Position numbers and translations under genes: made by a program
Notes under the pieces: model-generated
The model's database searches: none
What the model was told of the DNA's origin: nothing
The model's input: only the letters and a program-made list of their open reading frames with translations
Source of the DNA: a virus
Strand: one strand, 5' to 3'
IMG/VR virus record: IMGVR_UViG_3300010885_016029
Coordinates: 1-27,293 of that record
Length of the DNA stretch: 27,293 nucleotides
Shown here: piece by piece, positions 986-13,304 of the stretch
Layout: each line of letters opens with the position of its first letter
Position numbering within the stretch: the first letter of the stretch is position 1

Positions 986-1897
986 ATGGAATGCCCTAGC
1001 GCGACTATTGATGGCAAGGTAAACCTTGAAAACCATCTCTACACCATTGAAGTGGCACGGCTTGGCCCTCCCAATCCCAACGATCCCAGCAATGAATTCT
1101 GGGCGGATAAGGCAAAACGATGGGAAGTAGGAGATGCAGAGGCGCGGTCACGCTTGTGCAGTAATTGTGGGCATTACATTTTTACTGACAAAATTAAAGA
1201 GTGCATGGCGCAACATGACAATATTACGCCTGACATGGTTGGTCCTGGATGGGTGGACACAAATGATTCTGGAGGCTGGTGCAATCTTTACAACATCACC
1301 TGCACTGCCCATCGAACTTGCGTAGACTGGGAACCTGGCGGTCCCGTTACAACGGAAACGGAAATGGAAGATCGCGATGATGCAGCAATGCCTAAAACTA
1401 AAAAGGCCAAGCAGGCAAAAATTGCTAAGGTAATGCACGAATTTAAGGCTGGCACTCTTAAGGGCAGCGATAAGAAGCCAATTACCAATAGGAAGCAGGC
1501 AATTGCCATTGCTCTCTCTCAAGCTGGCATGTCAATGCAAGGCAAGAGTGATGAATATTGGGACGGTTATATCAATACAACTCTTGATGAATGGCAATCA
1601 AGTCAAGCAGACCAATCCGCAAAAATGGATGCCATGCAATGGAACGCTGAAAACCGAAAAAAATTAAAAGAAGGAAAAATTGAAGGCGCTTTTGCTGGTC
1701 CGGCAATGTCATTCCCCATCGCTTCAGCAGAAGACGTGGCAAATGCTTGGTCTTCTGTAGGCAGAGCTGCCAATCCCAAATCGATTGAAGCATCAATTAT
1801 TCGCATTGCCAAGAAATTTGGATGGGAAAGTGGTCTTCCAGCAACAGTTCGTGAACGGCTTAAGAGTGGCGAGAGTGGCATGCCCCCAAAGGGCTAA
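986..1897 (+). CDS. Cys-rich multi-domain phage protein (DUF6496-like and DUF6582-like), zero-frame product
   Basis: 303 residues when translation stops at TAA 1895-1897. Three parts are visible. Residues about 55-115 carry six cysteines (C58, C61, C73, C99, C106, C112) with the pattern CSNCGHY ... GWCNLYNITC ... RTCVDWEPGG, suggesting a metal or Fe-S site. Residues about 143-181 (KVMHEFKAGTLKG, TNRKQAIAIALSQAG) match my memory of DUF6496. Residues about 233-290 (SFPIASAEDVANAWSSVG, IIRIAKKFGW) resemble DUF6582, often found near phage head genes. The stop comes two codons after a CCCAAAG heptamer, and the next conserved domain continues in the -1 frame (see 1885-1923 and 1891-2244). No good Shine-Dalgarno precedes ATG 986. 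The role is unknown; location suggests an accessory or minor head protein. Confidence 0.7.
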   Translation: MECPSATIDGKVNLENHLYTIEVARLGPPNPNDPSNEFWADKAKRWEVGDAEARSRLCSNCGHYIFTDKIKECMAQHDNITPDMVGPGWVDTNDSGGWCNLYNITCTAHRTCVDWEPGGPVTTETEMEDRDDAAMPKTKKAKQAKIAKVMHEFKAGTLKGSDKKPITNRKQAIAIALSQAGMSMQGKSDEYWDGYINTTLDEWQSSQADQSAKMDAMQWNAENRKKLKEGKIEGAFAGPAMSFPIASAEDVANAWSSVGRAANPKSIEASIIRIAKKFGWESGLPATVRERLKSGESGMPPKG

Positions 1898-1923
1898 GGG
1901 GAGACGCCGAATCCTTTTCCCCT
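1885..1923 (+). promoter_or_regulatory. Candidate programmed -1 frameshift signal: slippery heptamer plus hairpin
   Basis: In the reading frame of the upstream gene the bases are C CCA AAG at 1885-1891, a perfect X XXY YYZ heptamer. A 5-base spacer (1892-1896) contains most of the zero-frame TAA. A hairpin follows: 1897-1904 pairs with 1916-1923 (eight pairs including one G-U, six of them the perfect AGGGGA/TCCCCT core) with an 11-base loop. Slippage would replace the stop and continue into the conserved domain ending at 2244. Heptamer, short spacer and stem-loop in this order are the established layout of -1 frameshift sites. Confidence 0.7.
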
Positions 1924-2244
1924 CCATCGTCCGTAAGGTCTGCAGCGCGTCGTGGCCTTGAATTGCGTAGGAAGTATCATAAGGGTGGTTTAACCACCCA
2001 AGAGGCCGGTAAACAGGGCATTGGCAGCGGCGTGGCGCGGGCGACGAGCTTAGCCAATGGCGAAAACGTAAGTTTTGAGACAATCAAGCGCATGGCAGCC
2101 TTCTTTTCTCGCCACGCAAAGAACTTTGCCGGGGGAGAGGACGACGCTGGCTTTATTTCAATGCAATTATGGGGAGGCGATGCGGGTAGGACATGGGCAA
2201 ATCGTGTGATTAAGATGGTTGAAAATCGCCAGTCAAAACAGTGA
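1891..2244 (+). CDS. C-terminal domain reached by -1 frameshift from the 986 gene
   Basis: This frame is open through the zero-frame stop and has no ATG or GTG before the conserved domain; the first possible start is TTG at 1963, which would cut the domain. The segment starting PPSSVRSAARRGLELRRKY, then GSGVARATSLANGENVS, RMAAFFSRH and MQLWGGDAGRTWANR follows a domain I know from phage head-region proteins, where it often sits in one chain with Cys-rich or DUF6582-like parts. A frameshifted product would be about 419 residues (302 from the zero frame plus 117). The alternative is a single-base sequencing error or recent mutation in the C5-A3-G3 run. The stop overlaps the GTG start of the next gene (GTGA, 2241-2244). 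Function unknown. Confidence 0.65.
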   Translation, partial: GLRGDAESFSPPSSVRSAARRGLELRRKYHKGGLTTQEAGKQGIGSGVARATSLANGENVSFETIKRMAAFFSRHAKNFAGGEDDAGFISMQLWGGDAGRTWANRVIKMVENRQSKQ

Positions 2245-2851: not shown

Positions 2852-2890
2852 TTGTCAAACTTATATTAACAGACCTGCTATTCTTAATGC
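2842..2890. promoter_or_regulatory. Divergent intergenic region with inverted repeat TTTGAC-N6-GTCAAA
   Basis: The gap between the minus-strand regulator and the protease-scaffold gene begins with a 6-base inverted repeat, TTTGAC (2842-2847) and GTCAAA (2854-2859), around a 6-base spacer that contains the regulator's start codon. This is a reasonable operator for a small XRE protein. An AT-rich stretch (TATATTAA, 2862-2869) follows. A possible + strand promoter is TTGTCA (2852-2857), 18 bases, TGCTAT (2876-2881), but the match is weak and would leave a very short leader before ATG 2891. The operator is an inference from palindrome and position. Confidence 0.4.
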
Positions 2891-4084
2891 ATGAGCACCA
2901 CATGCTTTCGCTACGATGTAGCGCCAATTGAAAAATACGAAACCACACCTGAAGGTTACTTGAGGTGCTGGTCTACTATTGCTCGGACTGGTGTACAAAA
3001 TTACACTAATTCGGACGGTTCAATTCGGCGTGAATATCGTCCCGTGAGCGAAGTGGCGTCTCCAGAAAGCTTGGCCTCGTTTGCGGGCAAAGCAATCACT
3101 CTTGAGCATCCTCCCGTATTGCTTGATAGCGCCAACACTAAAGACTATCAAATTGGCTTTAGTGGCACCGAGATAGTTTATGACGACGGCTTTGTTCGTG
3201 CAGTTATGACTATCACTGATGCAAAGGCAATTGAGCAAATCATGCGTGGTGATGCAAAAGAAGTCAGTGCTGGCTATAGGGTTTCCTATGATCCCACGCC
3301 TGGCATTACTGAAGGCGGTGAAAATTACGATGGTGTCCAAACAGGCATCAGTGGTAATCACATCGCTGTAGTGCGTAGGGGCCGTGCTGGCCCGCAAGTG
3401 AAGCTTCATCTAGATCATCTAGATGCCGCTGATCCATCTCTAATGAATACTGAGGAACCATCTATGACTGCTAAGGTCGTGTTTGATGGCGCCGAGTTCG
3501 AGGTGACCGAGAGCGTAGCTCTGGCAATCACTAAAGAACGTGAAGACGCCAAAATGTCCTTTCAGGACATGAAGAAAAAATACGATGGCATGATGTCCGA
3601 AGCTTCCCAAATGAAGGAAGAAATGGACGCCATGAAGAAAGCAATGAGTGGTAAGTGCGATTCCGCTGAGGGTCGTGCTGATGCACTTGCTGAGGAAGTT
3701 GAAGCCCTTAAAACGGACCTTTCCGCTGCTCAGGAAGTGAACGTTGATAGTCTCGTCGAAGAGCGCATTGCGCTAATCGACAAAGCTCGCACATCACTTG
3801 ATTCCGCCTTTGATTTTGCTGGCAAGTCTGCCCGTGAAATTATGGAAGCTTCCATCAAAACCGTCCGTGGTGATGAATGTGATCTGTCGGATCGTTCCGA
3901 TGATTATGTGACTGCCATGTTCGACACCCTGGCCGAAGCTGGCACTCGTGCTGATTCTGCCAACACCGATGAGCTGCGTAAAGCTGTTGCTTCCATCGCC
4001 TCTCCTCTTTCTGCTCCTGATGCCTACATGGATAAGTTGCAGAACGCTTGGAAATCCCCTCTCTCCGTCTCTAAGGAGCGCTGA
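2891..4084 (+). CDS. DUF2213-type prohead protease with C-terminal scaffold region
   Basis: 397 residues. The N-terminal half (about 1-185) matches the DUF2213 phage family: YDVAPIEKYETTPEGYLRC, GKAITLEHPPVLL, GFVRAVMTITD, AKEVSAGYRVSYDP and HIAVVRRGRAG. H73 and S126 sit in contexts (LEHPP, EVSAGY) that fit the His and Ser of a herpes/HK97-like assembly protease; this is by analogy. The C-terminal half (about 192-397) is charged and helical, with a Met- and Lys-rich coiled coil around residues 215-280, as expected of a scaffold that fills the prohead and is then degraded. ATG 2891 has no clear Shine-Dalgarno, whereas an internal ATG at 3464 has a good one. The gene directly precedes the cement and capsid genes. 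Confidence 0.8.
   Translation: MSTTCFRYDVAPIEKYETTPEGYLRCWSTIARTGVQNYTNSDGSIRREYRPVSEVASPESLASFAGKAITLEHPPVLLDSANTKDYQIGFSGTEIVYDDGFVRAVMTITDAKAIEQIMRGDAKEVSAGYRVSYDPTPGITEGGENYDGVQTGISGNHIAVVRRGRAGPQVKLHLDHLDAADPSLMNTEEPSMTAKVVFDGAEFEVTESVALAITKEREDAKMSFQDMKKKYDGMMSEASQMKEEMDAMKKAMSGKCDSAEGRADALAEEVEALKTDLSAAQEVNVDSLVEERIALIDKARTSLDSAFDFAGKSAREIMEASIKTVRGDECDLSDRSDDYVTAMFDTLAEAGTRADSANTDELRKAVASIASPLSAPDAYMDKLQNAWKSPLSVSKER
3464..4084 (+). CDS. Possible separate scaffold protein from an internal start
   Basis: An in-frame ATG at 3464 is preceded by GAGGA (3452-3456), about 8 bases upstream. This is a better ribosome binding site than that of the full gene. Translation from it would give a 206-residue protein made of the scaffold half alone (beginning MTAKVVFDGAEF), without the protease. 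Lambda Nu3, made from within gene C, is the known precedent. A second in-frame ATG at 3443 lacks this site. The call rests only on the ribosome binding site, the domain boundary and the precedent. Confidence 0.4.
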   Translation: MTAKVVFDGAEFEVTESVALAITKEREDAKMSFQDMKKKYDGMMSEASQMKEEMDAMKKAMSGKCDSAEGRADALAEEVEALKTDLSAAQEVNVDSLVEERIALIDKARTSLDSAFDFAGKSAREIMEASIKTVRGDECDLSDRSDDYVTAMFDTLAEAGTRADSANTDELRKAVASIASPLSAPDAYMDKLQNAWKSPLSVSKER

Positions 4085-4087
4085 TCC

Positions 4088-4642
4088 ATGGCCGTAACTT
4101 TCTCTGCCTCGGGGACTGCTTCCGCTGGTGGCGTGCAACAGAGCTACGCTCTGACTCACACCGCTCTGCTGGAAGGCCAACTCTCCGACGCCCGCAATAA
4201 TACTATTGGCACCTACGTCAACGAAACTGGCGCCGTCCTGCCTTTTGGTAATGGCGCTGCCTATAACAGTGGCGGTACTGTTGCCAACTCTGTAAAAACT
4301 CTTGCAGCTAGCGGCGACACCTTCATTGGCGTGAACATCCTCACCTATGTGGACGAAACCGCCCGCGATGCAAACAGCCGTCCTGGCGTCAAGGCTGCTC
4401 AAGTGGCCAACGTCATCAACCAAGGTGCTGTTGCCGTGTATGTTCACGGTTCTGTCACCCCCGCAACTGTTGTTCGTGTGATTCACACTGCAACTGGCGT
4501 TAAGTATGCCGGTCAGTTCACTGCTACTTCCATTAGTGGCAAGTCTGCTGTACTGACTAACGCCCGTTACCTCAACTCTGTCGCCTCTGGGCTGGCAATT
4601 CTTGAGCTGAACGGTCCGTCCTTCAACCTCACTGGCGATTGA
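4088..4642 (+). CDS. Head decoration / structural cement protein
   Basis: 184 residues, starting at ATG 4088 with AAGGAG (4073-4078) 9 bases upstream inside the end of the protease-scaffold gene. It is rich in Ala, Thr, Gly and Val, with short beta-strand-like stretches and no catalytic motif. The segment LLEGQLSDARNNTIGTYVNE resembles cement or decoration proteins that stabilise HK97-fold shells, and the slot between scaffold and major capsid protein is the usual place for them. Codons are strongly biased toward C-ending forms, as in the capsid gene next to it, suggesting high expression. The family is inferred from context and composition. Confidence 0.65.
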   Translation: MAVTFSASGTASAGGVQQSYALTHTALLEGQLSDARNNTIGTYVNETGAVLPFGNGAAYNSGGTVANSVKTLAASGDTFIGVNILTYVDETARDANSRPGVKAAQVANVINQGAVAVYVHGSVTPATVVRVIHTATGVKYAGQFTATSISGKSAVLTNARYLNSVASGLAILELNGPSFNLTGD

Positions 4643-4656
4643 TAGGAGACTTACCA

Positions 4657-5571
4657 ATGAACGATTTTCGCATGGATGATGCGGGTCTGTTTCTCCAGCG
4701 TCAGCTTGAGTACATCCGCCCCCAAGTATTTGAAACTGTCTATGCAGACATCAAATACCCCACTCTATTGCCTGTAACCAGCGAAGCTGGTCCTGGCGCA
4801 CAAACCTTCACCTATCGGATCATGGATTCGACTGGTGAATTCCGCCTTCTGGCTGATAGTGCCGACGATCTGCCCCGTGCTGACGTTAGCCAAGTCGAGA
4901 AGAGCATCAACATCCGCTCCTTCGGTGGTTCTTTCGGTTATTCCGTGCAGGAACTGCGTGCCGCACAAATGGCTAATGTTGCTCTTGAGCAGCGTCGTGC
5001 CATGGCCGTACGTCGTGCTTACGAAGAGAAAGTGGAAAGCGTTGCCATGTTTGGCGAAGCTTCTGTTTCCCTCACGGGTTTCTTCAACAATGCCACTGTT
5101 GACATTGTTGCTGCTGACAAGTGGTTTACCACTGCTTCTGTCACTGCCCAAGAAATGCTTGACCTGTTGAACTATGGCGTTAGCGCCGTGATCAACAACT
5201 CGCAAATGAAGGAGCAGCCTGACACGATCCTCATGCCTTATGAGGATTACAGCAAGATCTCCACACAGCGCAACTCTGATTCTTCGGACGTGACGGTGCT
5301 TGAGTATTTCCTCCGCACCAACCCTTATATCAACAACATTGAGCCCATCAACCAACTTACCAAAGGTAAGAACGGCGGCAAGCTCAACACCAACCGTATG
5401 GTGATCTATAAGCGCGATCCTGAGAAAGTGCAACTGCACATCCCTCAACCCCTTGAGCTGTTCCCCGCTCAGCAACGTGGTCTTGAGTTCATCGTCCCTG
5501 CTCACGCTCGCGTGGGTGGTGTGGCTCTGTACTATCCCAAGAGCATGATCTACGTTCAAGCTTCTTCTTGA
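4657..5571 (+). CDS. Major capsid protein, DUF2184 family (HK97 fold)
   Basis: 304 residues. ATG 4657 is chosen over the upstream TTG 4639 because AGGAGA (4644-4649) lies 7 bases before it. The sequence follows the DUF2184 phage family: LFLQRQLEYIRPQVFETVYA near the start, TYRIMDSTGEFRLLADSADD, SFGGSFGYSVQELRAAQMAN, an RRAYEEKVESVAMFGEA helix, MPYEDYSKISTQRN, and a C-terminal VPAHARVGGVALYYPKSMIY. It assembles the icosahedral shell. No separate propeptide is evident; scaffolding is probably supplied by the upstream gene. Codon use is the most biased in the window together with the cement and tube genes, as expected for the most abundant virion protein. Confidence 0.85.
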   Translation: MNDFRMDDAGLFLQRQLEYIRPQVFETVYADIKYPTLLPVTSEAGPGAQTFTYRIMDSTGEFRLLADSADDLPRADVSQVEKSINIRSFGGSFGYSVQELRAAQMANVALEQRRAMAVRRAYEEKVESVAMFGEASVSLTGFFNNATVDIVAADKWFTTASVTAQEMLDLLNYGVSAVINNSQMKEQPDTILMPYEDYSKISTQRNSDSSDVTVLEYFLRTNPYINNIEPINQLTKGKNGGKLNTNRMVIYKRDPEKVQLHIPQPLELFPAQQRGLEFIVPAHARVGGVALYYPKSMIYVQASS

Positions 5572-5606
5572 GCCTAGACAAGTGAAGGGCGCTAAGCTAA
5601 CCATCA

Positions 5607-5618
5607 GTTCTTAAGAAC
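5607..5618. repeat. Perfect 12-bp palindrome GTTCTTAAGAAC
   Basis: A perfect 12-base palindrome sits in the 53-base gap between the capsid gene and the next gene, 6 bases before its ATG 5625. It has no loop or T-run, so it is not a terminator. It could bind a dimeric regulator or be chance. It does not match the arms of the repeat at 2842-2859. Confidence 0.45.
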
Positions 5619-5624
5619 ATTCAA

Positions 5625-6011
5625 ATGTTGATTGCTTATCGCCCCGAACTTGAAAATCCACCTCGTGAAGGCGGATTTGGCATTATCACCGAATCAGGCA
5701 TGATTCAACTTGCTCCTGGCCTTAACCAGGAAATTCCAGAGCAACAATGGGCAAAAGCGCGTGAAAACGCTTCCATCAAACGTCTCATGACAATTGGTGC
5801 CATTGAAGAAGTGAAGGAGCAACTGACTGTAGAAGAAATTCCGCATGATGTGCAAACTCTTTCCAACATGCCTCTCATTGAAGCCATTCGTACCATTGAA
5901 ATCATCCATGACCTCGACCAACTGGCCGAGTGGAAGAAGATTGAAGGGCGCGTCAGGGTTCGTAATGCCATCGCCAAACGTCAGGAAGCTATCAAAATTG
6001 GCAGGGCATAA
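5625..6011 (+). CDS. Head-tail region hypothetical protein
   Basis: 128 residues. The start at ATG 5625 has no clear ribosome binding site and follows a 12-base palindrome. The N-terminal part (about 1-65) is Pro-, Gly- and Glu-rich. The C-terminal part (about 80-128) is helical with NMPLIEAIRTIEIIHDLDQL, then WKKIEGRVRVRNAIAKRQEA. I recall this pattern (acidic-hydrophobic helix, then W..iE.R..VR.AI..R) from small phage proteins encoded between capsid and connector genes, but no function is established that I can name. Position after the capsid gene and before the DUF4054 connector suggests a role at the portal vertex or in connector assembly. Confidence 0.6.
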   Translation: MLIAYRPELENPPREGGFGIITESGMIQLAPGLNQEIPEQQWAKARENASIKRLMTIGAIEEVKEQLTVEEIPHDVQTLSNMPLIEAIRTIEIIHDLDQLAEWKKIEGRVRVRNAIAKRQEAIKIGRA

Positions 6012-6013
6012 CA

Positions 6014-6328
6014 ATGGCTGTCACCTATTCCAACTTCCTTGATCGTTTTCCTGAATTTACGCCCCATCCATCGGGAATCGTAAATGGAGCCATTACTGAG
6101 GCCACTGCTGATGCATCTGCCGATGTGTTTGGAGATCAAACAGATCGCGCAGTGAAGCATTTAGCAGCTCACATTATTGCCATTCAACTTGCACAAATGG
6201 GCGTTCAAATTGGCGCCACCGATGGCAAGGTATATGGCAAAGGGCTGGAGGCCACTCAATATGGCCAAGAGTTCAAACGAATGCTTGAAACCGTCGCTGG
6301 TTCTTTCACCATTGGTTTTGTCGCATGA
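6014..6328 (+). CDS. DUF4054 head-tail connector protein
   Basis: 104 residues. The N-terminus YSNFLDRFPEFT, a variable helix, then AVKHLAAHIIAIQLAQMG is the layout of DUF4054, a mostly helical adaptor that attaches below the portal ring. The glycine-containing turn and EFKRMLETV helix at the end also fit. It starts two bases after the previous stop and its own stop overlaps the next start (ATGA, 6325-6328), so it is translated as part of a coupled set with the next joining protein. Confidence 0.75.
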   Translation: MAVTYSNFLDRFPEFTPHPSGIVNGAITEATADASADVFGDQTDRAVKHLAAHIIAIQLAQMGVQIGATDGKVYGKGLEATQYGQEFKRMLETVAGSFTIGFVA

Positions 6329-6714
6329 TCAACGGACTGTCACCATTAGCAAACGCTACGCTCACGTGGAGCGTTGCTTCTGGTTACACAGTTGATTCTG
6401 ACACTGGCAATTACATTCCCATGTCAAGTGGCGTTGTGTATTATGCTAGCCTCAAGCAGAAAGCCAATCCACGGTACGATTATTTGCTAGGTGCTGATAA
6501 TACGGCTGTGTACATGGAAGGACGCTTGACAGGGCCTCTAGCCCTCTCTGGTATCACTCCTGGCAGCAATGCTTCTGCAACTATCAATGGAAGGGAGGGA
6601 CGGTTCGAGCTTCTGCCTAATGAGCAAATTGCTGAACATTATTGGCAATTTCTTGGCACGCCAATCAGAGGAATTTTTAGACTGGTTGGCAAAGGAAGCG
6701 TCTTGAACGCTTAA
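6325..6714 (+). CDS. Probable head closure / head-tail joining protein
   Basis: 129 residues, starting at the ATGA overlap with the DUF4054 gene. It appears to be mostly beta: WSVASGYTVDSDTGNYI, VVYYASLKQKANPRYDYL, YMEGRLTGPLALSGI and a C-terminal YWQFLGTPIRGIFRLVGKG. No named motif is seen. Small beta-barrel stopper proteins usually follow the connector adaptor, and that position is the main reason for the call. A 27-base gap with GAGGA follows before the tube gene. Confidence 0.5.
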   Translation: MINGLSPLANATLTWSVASGYTVDSDTGNYIPMSSGVVYYASLKQKANPRYDYLLGADNTAVYMEGRLTGPLALSGITPGSNASATINGREGRFELLPNEQIAEHYWQFLGTPIRGIFRLVGKGSVLNA

Positions 6715-6741
6715 TCGTTCCTTCTTTCCCATTGAGGATAA

Positions 6742-7320
6742 ATGACTCTCTACCATCCGACTGAATTGGTTAAGAGCCAAGACGTTATCGTTCGTGTTGG
6801 CTCTATCTCCGGTACTGCTCGCCCTGTCATCACTCAGAGCGGCGCTACCTTCACCGTGAGTGGTGCTCCCACCCTCTACACCCTGCAAGCCGCTACAACG
6901 GCTTCTATCGCCTTTAACGACAACAATACTGAGTTCTACCTGCTTGGCGGCGGTGGTTTCTCTGATAGCGTTATCACCAGCTCTGCTGCAACTGCTGCCA
7001 TCACCTCCTACTTCCAGAAGGATGTTGACGGCACCGTCTTTCTGCCTGACAGTTTTGACGAAGCCTTCCAGGTTATCGCCACTGCTCGTTATGACAAGAA
7101 CGCTGAAGTGTACGTTGAAATCAACAAGCAACTTGGCGTTAGCGGCACCACTTACTACTACGACCGCGTGGCTTTTGTTAGCCGAGTGATGAACTATAAC
7201 GAGAGCTATCCTGCTGATAACCTCGTGGAATGCACCTTCGACTTGATGAGCCGTGGTCGCATCGGCATTCACCAGAATGCTCAGAACACTGGTTCTATCA
7301 TTCCGACTGCTCCTAACTGA
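6742..7320 (+). CDS. Major tail tube protein
   Basis: 192 residues. GAGGA (6734-6738) lies just upstream of ATG 6742. The protein has an N-terminal beta domain (DVIVRVGSISGTARPVITQ, TLQAATTASIAFNDNN) and a C-terminal part with DGTVFLPDSFDEAFQVIATA, YVEINKQLG, YYDRVAFVSRVMNYNES and LVECTFDLMSRGRI. This looks like a tail tube subunit that stacks in rings around the tape measure. Strongly biased codons like those of the capsid gene, a private terminator directly downstream, and position before the chaperone genes all support a highly expressed major tail protein. The exact Pfam family is not assigned. Confidence 0.75.
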   Translation: MTLYHPTELVKSQDVIVRVGSISGTARPVITQSGATFTVSGAPTLYTLQAATTASIAFNDNNTEFYLLGGGGFSDSVITSSAATAAITSYFQKDVDGTVFLPDSFDEAFQVIATARYDKNAEVYVEINKQLGVSGTTYYYDRVAFVSRVMNYNESYPADNLVECTFDLMSRGRIGIHQNAQNTGSIIPTAPN

Positions 7321-7783: not shown

Positions 7784-8016
7784 AATTGCTGAAAAGCACA
7801 TGTGAGAAGGCGTGGTTCTTTGATGCTCGCAAAAGCAATGACACATTAGCAGTTGGATTTTGCTGCTTTCTTCCTGAATGCCCACCAGAAGTAGAAATAA
7901 CTTTTAGAGGAAAACAAATGATGGTAATGGTTCCAAGAGGAGCCGTCTATTCCGCTGTGCCAACTCGGACAATGAACGTTAAACTATCTTTGTTTTCAAT
8001 AAGGACCGATGAGTAA
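7780..8016 (+). CDS. Small hypothetical tail-region protein
   Basis: 78 residues, starting in the ATGA overlap with the preceding gene and ending 8 bases inside the chaperone gene. It looks beta-rich (LAVGFCCFLPECPPEVEITF, KQMMVMVPRGAVYSAVPT) with three or four cysteines in the first half. No known family is recognised. Tight overlap on both sides indicates it is a real, coupled gene rather than a chance frame. Confidence 0.6.
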   Translation: MKLLKSTCEKAWFFDARKSNDTLAVGFCCFLPECPPEVEITFRGKQMMVMVPRGAVYSAVPTRTMNVKLSLFSIRTDE

Positions 8017-8545
8017 ATACTCAGAAATTTTTCTAGTGGGGAATGCCGAGTACGAAGAGCTTGGCTCGCGCTTGCGTATCAGGCGATATGGTAGTTGGCT
8101 GGCGGAAGAGTCATGGGTGAAAGAAGACCAGGCACGTAATCGTGCTCAATTCACTCTTAAGGCCATTCAGCTAGCTCGTCGCATCGCAAAAGAAAAAGAC
8201 ATTTCAGAAGAAGAGGCATTTCAACTTCTTCAAGGTGGAGAAAATAAGAATGCTGCACTCCTAAATGATTTTGCAGAGGAAACTGCAGATCTTATGGCAT
8301 GCATGCCTTCCTACCGCGAACAATTTGAACAACTTGCAACAGTGTTCCTGCGTAATCGTGGTGAAGTATTGAGTGGTAAGAAATGGATTGCAACTGAAGA
8401 TTGGGAGACGGCAGACACTGCAAAGTTGACCAAAGACATGATGCAAAATCTTGAATTCTTTATGGCCAAGGAAGACAACAGTCAAGTTGAAGGTGAAGAT
8501 GCCGAGGATCAAGGAGAGGAGGAAGAAGCCAGCCCAAAAGCTTAG
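8009..8545 (+). CDS. Tail assembly chaperone, lambda G-like (short product)
   Basis: 178 residues, overlapping the previous gene by 8 bases, with AAGGA (8001-8005) close upstream. It is charged and helical: EEFGSRLR-type start followed by EDQARNRAQFTLKAIQLARR, a second helical region (LNDFAEETADLMACMPSYRE), and an acidic Glu/Asp-rich tail before the stop. This composition and the position between tube and tape measure genes match the lambda G chaperone, which coats the tape measure before tube assembly and is absent from the virion. The stop TAG 8543-8545 comes one codon after a slippery CCCAAAA heptamer, allowing a longer GT form. Confidence 0.75.
   Translation: MSKYSEIFLVGNAEYEELGSRLRIRRYGSWLAEESWVKEDQARNRAQFTLKAIQLARRIAKEKDISEEEAFQLLQGGENKNAALLNDFAEETADLMACMPSYREQFEQLATVFLRNRGEVLSGKKWIATEDWETADTAKLTKDMMQNLEFFMAKEDNSQVEGEDAEDQGEEEEASPKA
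8533..8539 (+). promoter_or_regulatory. Programmed -1 frameshift heptamer CCCAAAA of the tail chaperone pair
   Basis: In the G-like frame the bases read C CCA AAA GCT TAG, a perfect X XXY YYZ site one codon before the stop. Shifting back one base joins a 137-residue open frame with no ATG or GTG of its own. -1 slippage at the G/GT position is a well established and conserved feature of siphovirus tail modules. No strong hairpin is obvious downstream. Confidence 0.85.
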
Positions 8546-9512: not shown

Positions 9513-12500
9513 ATGACTTATTCAATTAATTTCTCTACTAATGCTGCCCAAGCTATTCGCGACATCCAGCGGATCAATCAGAGCATTGGAGATCTTGGAA
9601 GACTTGGCCAAAACATTCAAATCAATGTCAATACTGCACGATTAAGCGGAAACATTAGGGAGACATTTAGGCAACTCAATACTGAGATCGGCCGGATGGA
9701 GACAAGGCTGTCCAGATTGCAAATTGGCAGCAAAGCCTTTACGCAGATGAATGCAGCCATTGGCTACCGCCAGGGCCGCGTAGAGCGGGGTCAAATGATT
9801 GGCGAGCCATTGCGATTACGTGGACAGGCTCAGGCCTTTGGCGAGGGAACCTCTGTTCGTCTTAGCAAAGAATTGCAAGCCGCACAAGTTGAAGCCTCAC
9901 AACTTGCTCCCAATACTGCACCATGGATTGAACTTCAGCAGCAAATTGGACGCATCAATACACAACTTCAACAAAGCAAAAAGTTAGCAGAAACTATTCA
10001 GATGAGGGAAAGCTTAGGAGCTTTCTCTCCCGGCAGTCTTGCGAGTTTGGAAACTAGATTAACAATCCTAAAAAATTCAGCAAGAAATATTTCTCCCGAT
10101 ACAGACCAGTGGAGAAAATTCAACGATCAAATACAACGTACGGAAAGATCCATTCAGAGAATCAATAGGAAGCCCTTGAGCGCTGGTCAGCGTCTAGGTG
10201 CGGCTGGCGGTGCATTTCTATATGGTGGCGGAATGGGAGGCGGTGCTGGCAGTGCTCTCGGTGGCATTGCTGGTGGTCTGATGGGAGGCGTACCTGGAGC
10301 TTTCACTGGAGCTGCTGTTGGTCAATTTGTTGACAATATGGGGCAGCAAACTGCTGCAATTGCAACCTTAGTTGCTGAGATTAATAAATCTAAAATTGCA
10401 CTGGCAGGAGTTTCAACCAATGTTGATGACTACAATAAGTCAATTGCCTCTGCCACTGCAATTAGTAGCAAATTTCTTCTGCCAATTTCCGATGGCATCA
10501 AACAATTTACAAAGCTAAAAGCAAGTGTAGTTGGAGCAGGTTATAGCACCGAGGTAACTACAAAAGTCTTCAATGGTATTGCTGCAGCAATTATTGGAAC
10601 AGGAGGATCAACTGAAGACTTAAATGGTGCATTGCTGGCCACTTCACAAGTATTTAGCAAGGGAAAAGTTAGTGCTGAAGAATTAAGAGGTCAAATTGGA
10701 GAAAGACTGCCTGGTGCATTTACTTTATTTGCAAAATCCATCGGAAAAACCCCCCAAGATCTTGATAAACTTCTTCAAGATGGAAAAGTTGGTCTGAAAG
10801 ATTTTATTAAATTTACAGATGAATTGAATGTAAAATTTGGAAAAACTGCTGAAACTCTTGCGGCTGCCCCTGAAAATGCTGGGCCACGTTTGAAGGTTGC
10901 ATTGCAAGCTGCCGCTGTATCTTATGGTGGTTTGTTTCAAGTTATCGGTGCTGGATTCCAGAATTCAGTAAGTGATGTTATTAAATTTGCGCTTGTCAAC
11001 GAAAGTTCAATCAAAAGAGTGGTTACAGTTTTTGCCATTGGTTTTAATACACTTGGCAAATTAGTTGTTGGTTTTGGAAAATTTTTAGTAGGTACATTTA
11101 ATCTTGTCTTCACTCAGTTACTTGGTAGTCTTGACACAGTTCTTTCCAGAATTGAAAATGCGATTAATCGTGCCAAAGCAGTCGAAAGTTTAACTCCAGA
11201 AAAAATTACATCAATACAAAATCAAGCGAGAATTATTGCAGATAAGAGGTATCCAGGATTGCTTGCATCTGGAGAAAAAAGCACTTTTTACAATACCACC
11301 TTTAATAAATTAATTGATGAAGCGACTGGTGCCTCGAAAGAAGTTAAATATACTGATAAAATCAAAAATATTCTTTTTCCTGAATTCGATCCAACTCAAT
11401 TTGGTGGCGGTACTCAGGGCAATGGAATGCCTGGTGGTGCTGCAAATACAAAAGGAGTGGAAGCGTTTGAAAAATTAAAAGATGATCTTGCCAAGGCTTA
11501 TAACGAAGCTGAAATTGAACGTATTAAGAAACGTTTTGAACTGCAAAAACAATTGCAGCAAGATCAGTTTGATATGCAAGAGCTTGGCGCTAATCGCCTG
11601 CAAAAACAAAACTTAGCACTAATAAGAGCATTGATGGCGGCTGAGATAAGCAGGGCTGAAACTGTTCGCAATGCACGGCTAGAAGTGCAAAAACAGTCTG
11701 GAAAAGTTGCCGGTGGAGCCGGAGGCATTGCACAATATTACACTGGAGATCCGTCAAGCGCTAGTTATGACAGGAGCCATGGCACAACAGGCAATTATCA
11801 TGACCACCTGGCTTTTACTACTAGAGAAGCGGCAGTGGCGGCTTATGAAGCGCTAAAACTTGCTGGCATTAAAGTTACAGAATTTCAGGGGTATGGACAA
11901 GGCGTTACTGGTGCCCATAGCGGCTCGGGCTCCCTCCACCACCAAGGATTGGCATTTGATGTGCCTGGTTATCAATGGGGAGGCAGTGGTGCTATTGGAG
12001 CAAGGGAATATGCTGGCTCAGCCCGTGTAAGACAGGCTGTTGGCATAAGCGGACCAGTTGGAGCAGGGCAGTTCCGCAAGGTGGGGGGAAATGAAAAGCG
12101 TGACATAATGGCGGAAGCCAATACGGGTATTGCTGCTCAAAATGCGCAACAGGCTGCATTTGATGCAAATATTCTTAAGTCCTCGGAAGTAATGAAGGCA
12201 TTTGCACAGTATGCAAGTGAAGCATACAATGTTCCAGACTTGAAACTTTCAAATGACTTACTCAAGCTCCGCAATGATTTAACTTCTCAAGGAATGGGTC
12301 CTGAGCAAATTGACTATCAAGTTCGTTTGCATGAAATTGAACAACAAAGACAGGATTTACTATCTCGCCTTCCCGCAGCAGAGGACAAGGCAAAACTATC
12401 TATTGCGTTACGGCAGGCTGGACTTGCAGCTTTAACTAAGGTAACTAAAGAAGCCACTGCTGAGGAAAAACGCAAAAATGATGAAACATTAAAAGGATTG

Positions 12501-13304
12501 CTTATTGCAGCACAAACACAACAAGCTGATCGTCTTGCAATGGCACAAGCTATTTCTCCTGATGCTGAAATGCGCTTGCGTCTTGAACAGACATATCCAG
12601 GACAAAGTAAGGCAAGTATTGATAATCTTTTCGCCACTGAAAAAGCAATTGCTAAAGCCGAAGAATTGAAGACTGCCTTCCAGGGTGTTGCATCAGCTAT
12701 TGGTGATTCCTTTGGTCAAGCTTTTAAGGGAGTGGTATCAGGCTCCATGACAGCGCAGGAAGCATTGTCTCAAATGTTCCAAAGTATTGCCAGTTCTTTC
12801 ATGGATATGGTTGCACAAATGATTGCTTCATGGATAAAAGCACAAGCCATCAAAGGAATAGCAAGTTTGATTGGAATGATAATTCCAGGATTTGGAACTA
12901 CAGCCTCGCCAGGCGGATTGGAAGGTGTAAATATGGGAGCAGTAAATCAATATTCAGCACCGCTAGGTTATGCAAATGGTGGTGTTATCTCCGGTGGCTT
13001 TCGTGCCTTTGCCTCTGGAGGCGTTGTCTCAGGCCCCACGCTTGGCCTTGTAGGCGAAGGGCGTTACAATGAGGCAGTTATTCCTCTACCAGACGGCAAG
13101 AGTGTCCCGGTGGACCTCGGCGGCATGGGCGGCGGGGGTCAAATCACTAGTAACATTGTTGTCAACGTTAATTCCGATGGTCAAAGTCAAAGTCAACAAT
13201 CGGGCAATGGTTCTGCAGAACTTGGCAAGAAAATTGAAGGCGCTGTCAAGCAAGTTATCGTTGGCGAACTCCGTCCTGGTGGCCTCCTAGCAGGTAGACG
13301 ATAA
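9513..13304 (+). CDS. Tail tape measure protein with embedded peptidase-like domain
   Basis: 1263 residues, with GGAGG 9 bases before ATG 9513. The N-terminus is coiled-coil (ETRLSRLQIGSKAF, then a repeated helix RTERSIQRIN). A Gly/Ala-rich hydrophobic stretch is at about 225-275. A tape-measure N-terminal-type domain follows at about 290-440 (GAGYSTEVTTKVFNGIAAAI, AEELRGQIGERLPGAF). At about 740-850 there is an inserted domain with YHDHLAF and SLHHQGLAFDVPG (S807, H809, G812, D816), resembling the SxHxxGxAxD motif of M15 peptidases. The C-terminus has a hydrophobic stretch (about 1090-1130) and the common ending GPTLGLVGEGRYNEAVIPLP. It sets tail length; at about 0.15 nm per residue the tail would be near 190 nm. 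The stop overlaps the next start (TAATG). Confidence 0.9.
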   Translation: MTYSINFSTNAAQAIRDIQRINQSIGDLGRLGQNIQINVNTARLSGNIRETFRQLNTEIGRMETRLSRLQIGSKAFTQMNAAIGYRQGRVERGQMIGEPLRLRGQAQAFGEGTSVRLSKELQAAQVEASQLAPNTAPWIELQQQIGRINTQLQQSKKLAETIQMRESLGAFSPGSLASLETRLTILKNSARNISPDTDQWRKFNDQIQRTERSIQRINRKPLSAGQRLGAAGGAFLYGGGMGGGAGSALGGIAGGLMGGVPGAFTGAAVGQFVDNMGQQTAAIATLVAEINKSKIALAGVSTNVDDYNKSIASATAISSKFLLPISDGIKQFTKLKASVVGAGYSTEVTTKVFNGIAAAIIGTGGSTEDLNGALLATSQVFSKGKVSAEELRGQIGERLPGAFTLFAKSIGKTPQDLDKLLQDGKVGLKDFIKFTDELNVKFGKTAETLAAAPENAGPRLKVALQAAAVSYGGLFQVIGAGFQNSVSDVIKFALVNESSIKRVVTVFAIGFNTLGKLVVGFGKFLVGTFNLVFTQLLGSLDTVLSRIENAINRAKAVESLTPEKITSIQNQARIIADKRYPGLLASGEKSTFYNTTFNKLIDEATGASKEVKYTDKIKNILFPEFDPTQFGGGTQGNGMPGGAANTKGVEAFEKLKDDLAKAYNEAEIERIKKRFELQKQLQQDQFDMQELGANRLQKQNLALIRALMAAEISRAETVRNARLEVQKQSGKVAGGAGGIAQYYTGDPSSASYDRSHGTTGNYHDHLAFTTREAAVAAYEALKLAGIKVTEFQGYGQGVTGAHSGSGSLHHQGLAFDVPGYQWGGSGAIGAREYAGSARVRQAVGISGPVGAGQFRKVGGNEKRDIMAEANTGIAAQNAQQAAFDANILKSSEVMKAFAQYASEAYNVPDLKLSNDLLKLRNDLTSQGMGPEQIDYQVRLHEIEQQRQDLLSRLPAAEDKAKLSIALRQAGLAALTKVTKEATAEEKRKNDETLKGLLIAAQTQQADRLAMAQAISPDAEMRLRLEQTYPGQSKASIDNLFATEKAIAKAEELKTAFQGVASAIGDSFGQAFKGVVSGSMTAQEALSQMFQSIASSFMDMVAQMIASWIKAQAIKGIASLIGMIIPGFGTTASPGGLEGVNMGAVNQYSAPLGYANGGVISGGFRAFASGGVVSGPTLGLVGEGRYNEAVIPLPDGKSVPVDLGGMGGGGQITSNIVVNVNSDGQSQSQQSGNGSAELGKKIEGAVKQVIVGELRPGGLLAGRR

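Follow-up and report, generated by a model that had tools for sequence, protein, structure and literature searches.

A programmed -1 ribosomal frameshift at the heptamer C_CCA_AAG very probably adds a phage head-module domain to a DUF6496 protein; from comparative sequence analysis, we put the probability at roughly 93%. The site is in the window, by which we mean the whole stretch of viral DNA that we analysed (IMG/VR record IMGVR_UViG_3300010885_016029, 27,293 nucleotides). About a hundred relatives share the signal, which almost certainly makes some ribosomes slip and so gives a short and a long protein in each. The mechanism is standard, but the gene family is apparently undescribed for frameshifting: we found no description of a frameshift in a DUF6496 gene in the open-licence papers that we searched, none of which mentions DUF6496.

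The junction in the window

The features that we will refer to are:

986..1897, + strand: zero-frame ORF, short product of 303 aa (from the ORF list; Pfam PF20106, E = 8e-7)
1885..1891, + strand: slippery heptamer C_CCA_AAG (XXXAAAG at the same place in 98/98 unique relatives with a -1 junction)
1892..1896, + strand: 5-nt spacer GGCTA (from the sequence)
1895..1897, + strand: zero-frame stop TAA (codon 1 or 2 past the heptamer in 87/88 non-redundant relatives)
1897..1904, + strand: putative stimulatory stem, 5' arm (97.9% of cells paired in relatives)
1916..1923, + strand: putative stimulatory stem, 3' arm (97.9% of cells paired in relatives)
1891..2244, + strand: -1-frame extension, helical domain related to phrog_2859 (dN/dS 0.07)
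2891..4084, + strand: DUF2213 head maturation protease (neighbouring gene)
4088..4642, + strand: capsid cement protein (PF22758)
4639..5571, + strand: major capsid protein (neighbouring gene)

The ORF at 986-1897 ends in ATG CCC CCA AAG GGC TAA. The heptamer C_CCA_AAG (1885-1891) is in phase with the ATG at 986, and is followed by GGC (1892-1894) and then, as the second codon, by TAA (1895-1897). A putative stem of 7-8 bp, AGGGGAGA (1897-1904) with TTTCCCCT (1916-1923), begins 5 nt 3' of the heptamer; it encloses an 11-nt loop and includes one G-U pair, and its first base is also the final base of the TAA. At 8 bp and with a 5-nt spacer, this stem-loop is within the range of 5-9 nt downstream of a heptamer. 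The -1 frame is open up to the TGA at 2242-2244. The computed products are a short protein of 303 aa and a long protein of 419 aa, which joins the 302 residues read before the shift to 117 aa from the -1 frame. The original prediction had described the same arrangement of heptamer, spacer, hairpin and stop at 1885-1923, and our recomputed product sizes agree with it.

Among the 8,043 codon positions of the main window ORFs that we checked, the sole in-frame X_XXA_AAG is the heptamer at 1885-1891. The hairpin is less distinctive: folding it as a single sequence does not set it apart from shuffles (z about -0.5 to -1). Thus the layout of heptamer and stop is all that stands out when the window is taken alone, and we relied on comparison with relatives, in which conservation gives the decisive evidence. 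The stem is only moderately stable, and Rfam has no family for the cassette RNA.

We propose that ribosomes at C_CCA_AAG would pause at the stem. In a fraction of them, both tRNAs would re-pair one base back, with CCC and AAA. The slipped ribosomes would bypass the TAA and read on through the 117-residue helical domain, while the other ribosomes would stop and release the short DUF6496 protein. This would be tandem slippage of tRNA-Pro (tRNA-Gly or tRNA-Lys in relatives) and tRNA-Lys, aided by the stem and occurring in a minority of passages, so that both proteins would be made at a low long-to-short ratio, which may or may not be fixed as the original prediction suggested.

The junction in relatives

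We fetched loci whose proteins resemble the -1-frame domain (the C-domain), without using the RNA signal. Removing identical junctions left 132 unique ones. In 98 of these, a -1 shift is needed to join DUF6496 to the C-domain; 21 have both in one frame, 2 have a +1 relation, and in 11 DUF6496 was not recognised. Nine of those 11 have the same cassette, with upstream sequence that is truncated or missing or has diverged; the other two are a fused gene (L378) and a distant relative (L405).

All 98 of the -1 junctions have a heptamer (AAAAAAG in 59, GGGAAAG in 31, and CCCAAAG in 8), and in all 98 it lies exactly 60 nt ahead of the same domain codon. These are the three X_XXA_AAG heptamers that are reported to be highly shift-prone in E. 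coli (Atkins et al. review, PMC5009743). Collapsing the 98 junctions at 95% identity gave 88 non-redundant sequences, in which the zero-frame stop is the first codon after the heptamer (4 sequences), the second (83) or the sixth (1). On a tree of the C-domain, the slippery triplet swaps between AAA, GGG and CCC about 17 times, with no intermediates seen; this number is rough because the tree is weakly resolved. We also scanned viral contigs with the cassette pattern and found at least 119 matching stretches. The C-domain was recognised in 115 of these, and the other 4 are at contig ends, with C-domain coding beginning there. An alignment-based scan of viral sequences returned mostly the same contigs again, and genome contigs yielded just three weak loci.

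Aligning relatives was a check proposed along with the original prediction, and its outcome strongly supports a -1 frameshift. The heptamer, the stop and the hairpin are conserved, the cassette is at one position in 98 unique junctions with compensatory changes in its stem, and there are relatives with a single frame that do not have the cassette.

A6G is the heptamer that occurs most often, and some members (a few) carry an A8 run, as might be expected if transcriptional slippage at the A-run yielded the second frame. But 39 of the 98 junctions use GGGAAAG or CCCAAAG, which contain no long homopolymer. Furthermore, transcriptional slippage requires neither an in-frame 3+3 heptamer, nor a nearby zero-frame stop, nor a compensating RNA stem. 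We consider this explanation extremely improbable.

One relative is an isolate. The sole match in our phage collection to the window's head-module DNA (2889-7300) is Synechococcus phage S-CBS4, at 71% identity across 78% of the stretch. The S-CBS4 junction is A_AAA_AAG GGC TAA, with a slippery triplet unlike the window's, and its stem, AGGGGCGA...TCGCCCCT, has a C-G in place of an A-U pair. In the S-CBS4 record, gp018 is the short form and gp019 is annotated as a separate gene that starts from an internal GTG, which omits the conserved residues LRGDAEGFAPP. (For gp019, at L002:4322-4630 or HQ698895.1 13217-13525, the conserved coding sequence lies in the -1 frame of gp018 and begins about 14 codons ahead of the annotated start.) By title or abstract, we found nothing in the open-licence literature on S-CBS4 together with a frameshift on the gp018/gp019 gene.

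The annotation of gp019 raises another explanation: the two frames, which overlap at a stop codon, might encode two separate proteins. The C-domain would then arise by internal initiation or by reinitiation past the zero-frame stop, and the heptamer would be incidental. But across the 88 sequences, the open -1 frame never has an ATG ahead of the domain. In 63 of the 88, there is no ATG, GTG or TTG at or before RGDAE, and in 43 there is none before ARRGL. These counts make internal initiation unlikely. The original prediction noticed the lack of an ATG or GTG ahead of the window's -1 domain, and this is correct: the first ATG, GTG or TTG in that frame is the TTG at 1963, within the conserved domain. 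Furthermore, RGDAESF is conserved in relatives whose genes are fused in one frame as well, so it must be translated. And two separate proteins would leave both the stem and the 98/98 heptamers unexplained. We therefore view this explanation as very improbable. Instead, the -1 frame is open, under selection at the protein level, and without a start of its own, which is what a frameshift would require.

Is the stem itself conserved? We tested this with the 88 non-redundant sequences (79 distinct). Across them, 97.9% of stem cells are paired, versus 92.1% for shuffled alignments, and 0 of 500 shuffles were as high. Stem cells changed on both sides number 33, versus 12.6 when shuffled, and the covariation score is 0.211, versus 0.114 when shuffled and at most 0.092 in slid controls. 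Pair 6 covaries among C-G, A-U and U-G, although 5 of the 88 sequences have a C-U mismatch there. On the 5' side this pair uses the free third position of a Gly codon, and on the 3' side the first position of the Ser or Ala codon that follows six codons later. Pair 5 changes from G-C to A-U in 4 sequences (including L107, L326 and L331). The sequences are related, and on strongly supported branches there are only 5 independent pairs for covariation, of which about 3.7 agree and 0 disagree.

Even if the frameshift is real, the hairpin might just mirror the protein sequence RGDAESF(S/A)PP and not be a stimulator. These conserved residues fix much of the stem, and the single-sequence stem is, as described above, no better than shuffled. 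Also, we found a weak enrichment of Shine-Dalgarno-like sequence about 10-14 nt upstream of the heptamer, which could be the main stimulator. But the synonymous third base of the Gly codon tracks the Ser/Ala codon, and the switch at pair 5 preserves pairing. AGG is used for the Arg in 87 of 88 frameshifted genes, as compared to 6 of 17 fused genes. And the fused genes, which encode the same residues, hold just 75.8% of the pairs (n = 16, with L132 left out), which is near one of the slid controls (73.4%). So we think that a hairpin without a stimulatory role is quite unlikely. In the frameshifted genes, excess codon uniformity peaks over the junction codons and drops along the domain.

The two proteins and their fused relatives

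The original prediction described the zero-frame product as a Cys-rich protein. This holds for the N-terminus of the window's protein but not for the family: the Cys motif is found in 4 of 88 frameshifted members and in 0 of 17 fused members. As judged from its sequence, the conserved zero-frame partner is a small DUF6496 protein instead. With a gathering score of 24 bits for DUF6496 (PF20106), the window's protein scores 29.8 and that of S-CBS4 scores 34.2. In the window, the Cys-rich N-terminus is followed by DUF6496 at residues 140-180 and by an extra C-terminal stretch that is peculiar to this phage. The zero-frame proteins of relatives are mostly 65-134 aa, and longer forms with a Cys-containing N-terminus occur only in the window and a few relatives. 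(Zero-frame DNA at about 1587-1872, encoding KEGKIEGAFAGPAMSF...VRERLKSG, finds no nucleotide match in the near relative L004, although the surrounding DNA is 84-96% identical.)

The -1-frame domain belongs to the phage head module. Its AlphaFold2 model is nearly all helical (pLDDT 87.6). A search of PDB folds with the C-domain gave no significant match; the N-terminal domain of lambda cI came up with E of about 1.8 and was not used, and a Pfam match to a glucanase family (PF16483) was below the cut-off and was ignored. Among predicted viral proteins, the fold is found within proteins that carry the names prohead protease, XkdF, portal (Halorubrum tailed virus 4), TUDOR and ParB. A protease-capsid polyprotein of Roseobacter phage CRP-406 begins with it, and Limnohabitans phage DC31 has it ahead of a Peptidase_S78_2 domain.

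Where relatives of the C-domain are distant (identity of about 58% or less), a single frame encodes them together with other partners; the one exception is a short and weak fragment (L236). So the frameshift seems to be confined to the DUF6496 clade. Because distant C-domains are encoded in-frame within long proteins, the C-domain appears to be a mobile module of tailed phages; it has no Pfam model. (L414, L415, L417 and L405-L412 have distant C-domains in one frame inside long proteins that are either head-module proteins or of unknown function.)

We also identified 17 non-redundant relatives with DUF6496 and the C-domain in one frame. In 16 of these fused genes, the heptamer is absent and the stem has decayed. 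The fused proteins have 182-216 aa, or about the size expected of the common long form. A predicted model of a fused protein has two folded parts, with a low-confidence hinge (residues 68-72) at the junction.

In principle, the existence of fused genes could mean that the true gene is a single intact frame, and that the frameshifted versions reflect assembly or sequencing indels or a decaying gene. Three singletons (L111, L132 and L136) do have 1-nt indels near the run. But the isolate S-CBS4 has the same junction, as do about 98 distinct sequences. Purifying selection on the -1-frame domain is strong, with a median dN/dS of 0.07 across 465 pairs of frameshifted genes, as compared to 0.22 for the DUF6496 core. 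And the junctions of the fused genes have diverged, rather than being the frameshift sequence with one base altered; the exception is L132, which is fused through one extra A. A sequencing indel, which was a worry from the outset, is excluded by the conservation across 98 unique junctions; at the level of the family, indels or decay are already refuted, and we give this explanation practically no weight. In L111 and L136, single-base indels break the cassette arrangement. The 1-nt differences at or beside the heptamer in L111, L132 and L136, which change the frame relation, are either contig errors or recent natural switches.

Genome context and known frameshifts

After the frameshift gene come a gene for an unknown protein, an antisense HTH gene, and the genes for the DUF2213 protease, the cement protein and the capsid. 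The HTH_3 gene (2525-2851, - strand) sits after the frameshift gene and before that of the head protease, and gp021 of S-CBS4, annotated as a transcriptional regulator, has the same position and orientation. The C-domain is found elsewhere in prohead proteases, portals and a protease-capsid polyprotein, and the gene is just before those for protease, cement and capsid. So it is possible, if tentative, that the long form serves to recruit its DUF6496 part to the head during assembly. This role, which we infer from the company of the domain and from gene order, is a weaker part of our proposal.

The nearest functional parallels are G/G-T of phage lambda and the Ig-like extensions, which are both frameshifted and fused. 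The heptamer of lambda G/G-T is GGGAAAG. Our gene resembles G/G-T in the type of heptamer, in the expected minority long product with a second domain from the -1 frame, and in the small zero-frame protein that terminates early. But G/G-T precedes the tape measure gene in the tail module, while protease, cement and capsid genes come after ours (986-2244), which joins DUF6496 to a head-module domain.

Phage head or tail proteins (T3, A2, Listeria phages) can have Ig-like extensions, some added by a frameshift and others fused in frame (PMC5009743). As in our family, a mobile domain is joined to a structural-module protein by frameshift or in frame, across relatives. However, the C-domain is predicted to be nearly all-helical, not an Ig-like beta-sandwich, and the zero-frame protein is not a major capsid or tail protein. 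The major head protein of phage A2 also has a -1 shift in the head module that gives a C-terminally extended product, but A2 extends the major head protein itself. In the window, the extended protein is a DUF6496 protein encoded upstream of the protease, and the capsid is a separate ORF (4639-5571). Finally, dnaX of E. coli has A_AAA_AAG, the commonest class of heptamer here, with a downstream stem-loop. The dnaX shift yields the shorter product, while the shift here yields the longer one, and an upstream Shine-Dalgarno-like element is only weakly suggested here.

Few well-supported conserved phage frameshifts are known beyond those of tail chaperones, Ig-like coat or tail proteins, and transposases. 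About a hundred contigs related to a cultured cyanophage conserve this one, yet it was overlooked in the annotation of S-CBS4, where gp019 is cut short. S-CBS4 also permits a direct test of the frameshift, and close relatives with frameshifted or fused versions of one gene are a natural experiment. Furthermore, our results point to a head-module domain that is widespread and unnamed, and the number of its copies may be important. We speculate, though we doubt it more than we credit it, that a cyanophage lineage employs frameshifting to control dosage in head assembly: the helical domain would be a general docking domain for the head module of tailed phages, the slip would fix how much DUF6496 is tethered per procapsid, much as G/G-T does for tails, and lineages would switch repeatedly between frameshifted and fused forms.

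The window also has a chaperone-like site (8533-8539) that is separate from the one described here. At 8533-8545, C_CCA_AAA is followed by GCT TAG, which ends the ORF at 8009-8545, and the -1 frame is open afterwards. With the tape measure gene (9513-13304, PF20155) downstream, this is the usual layout of a tail chaperone frameshift.
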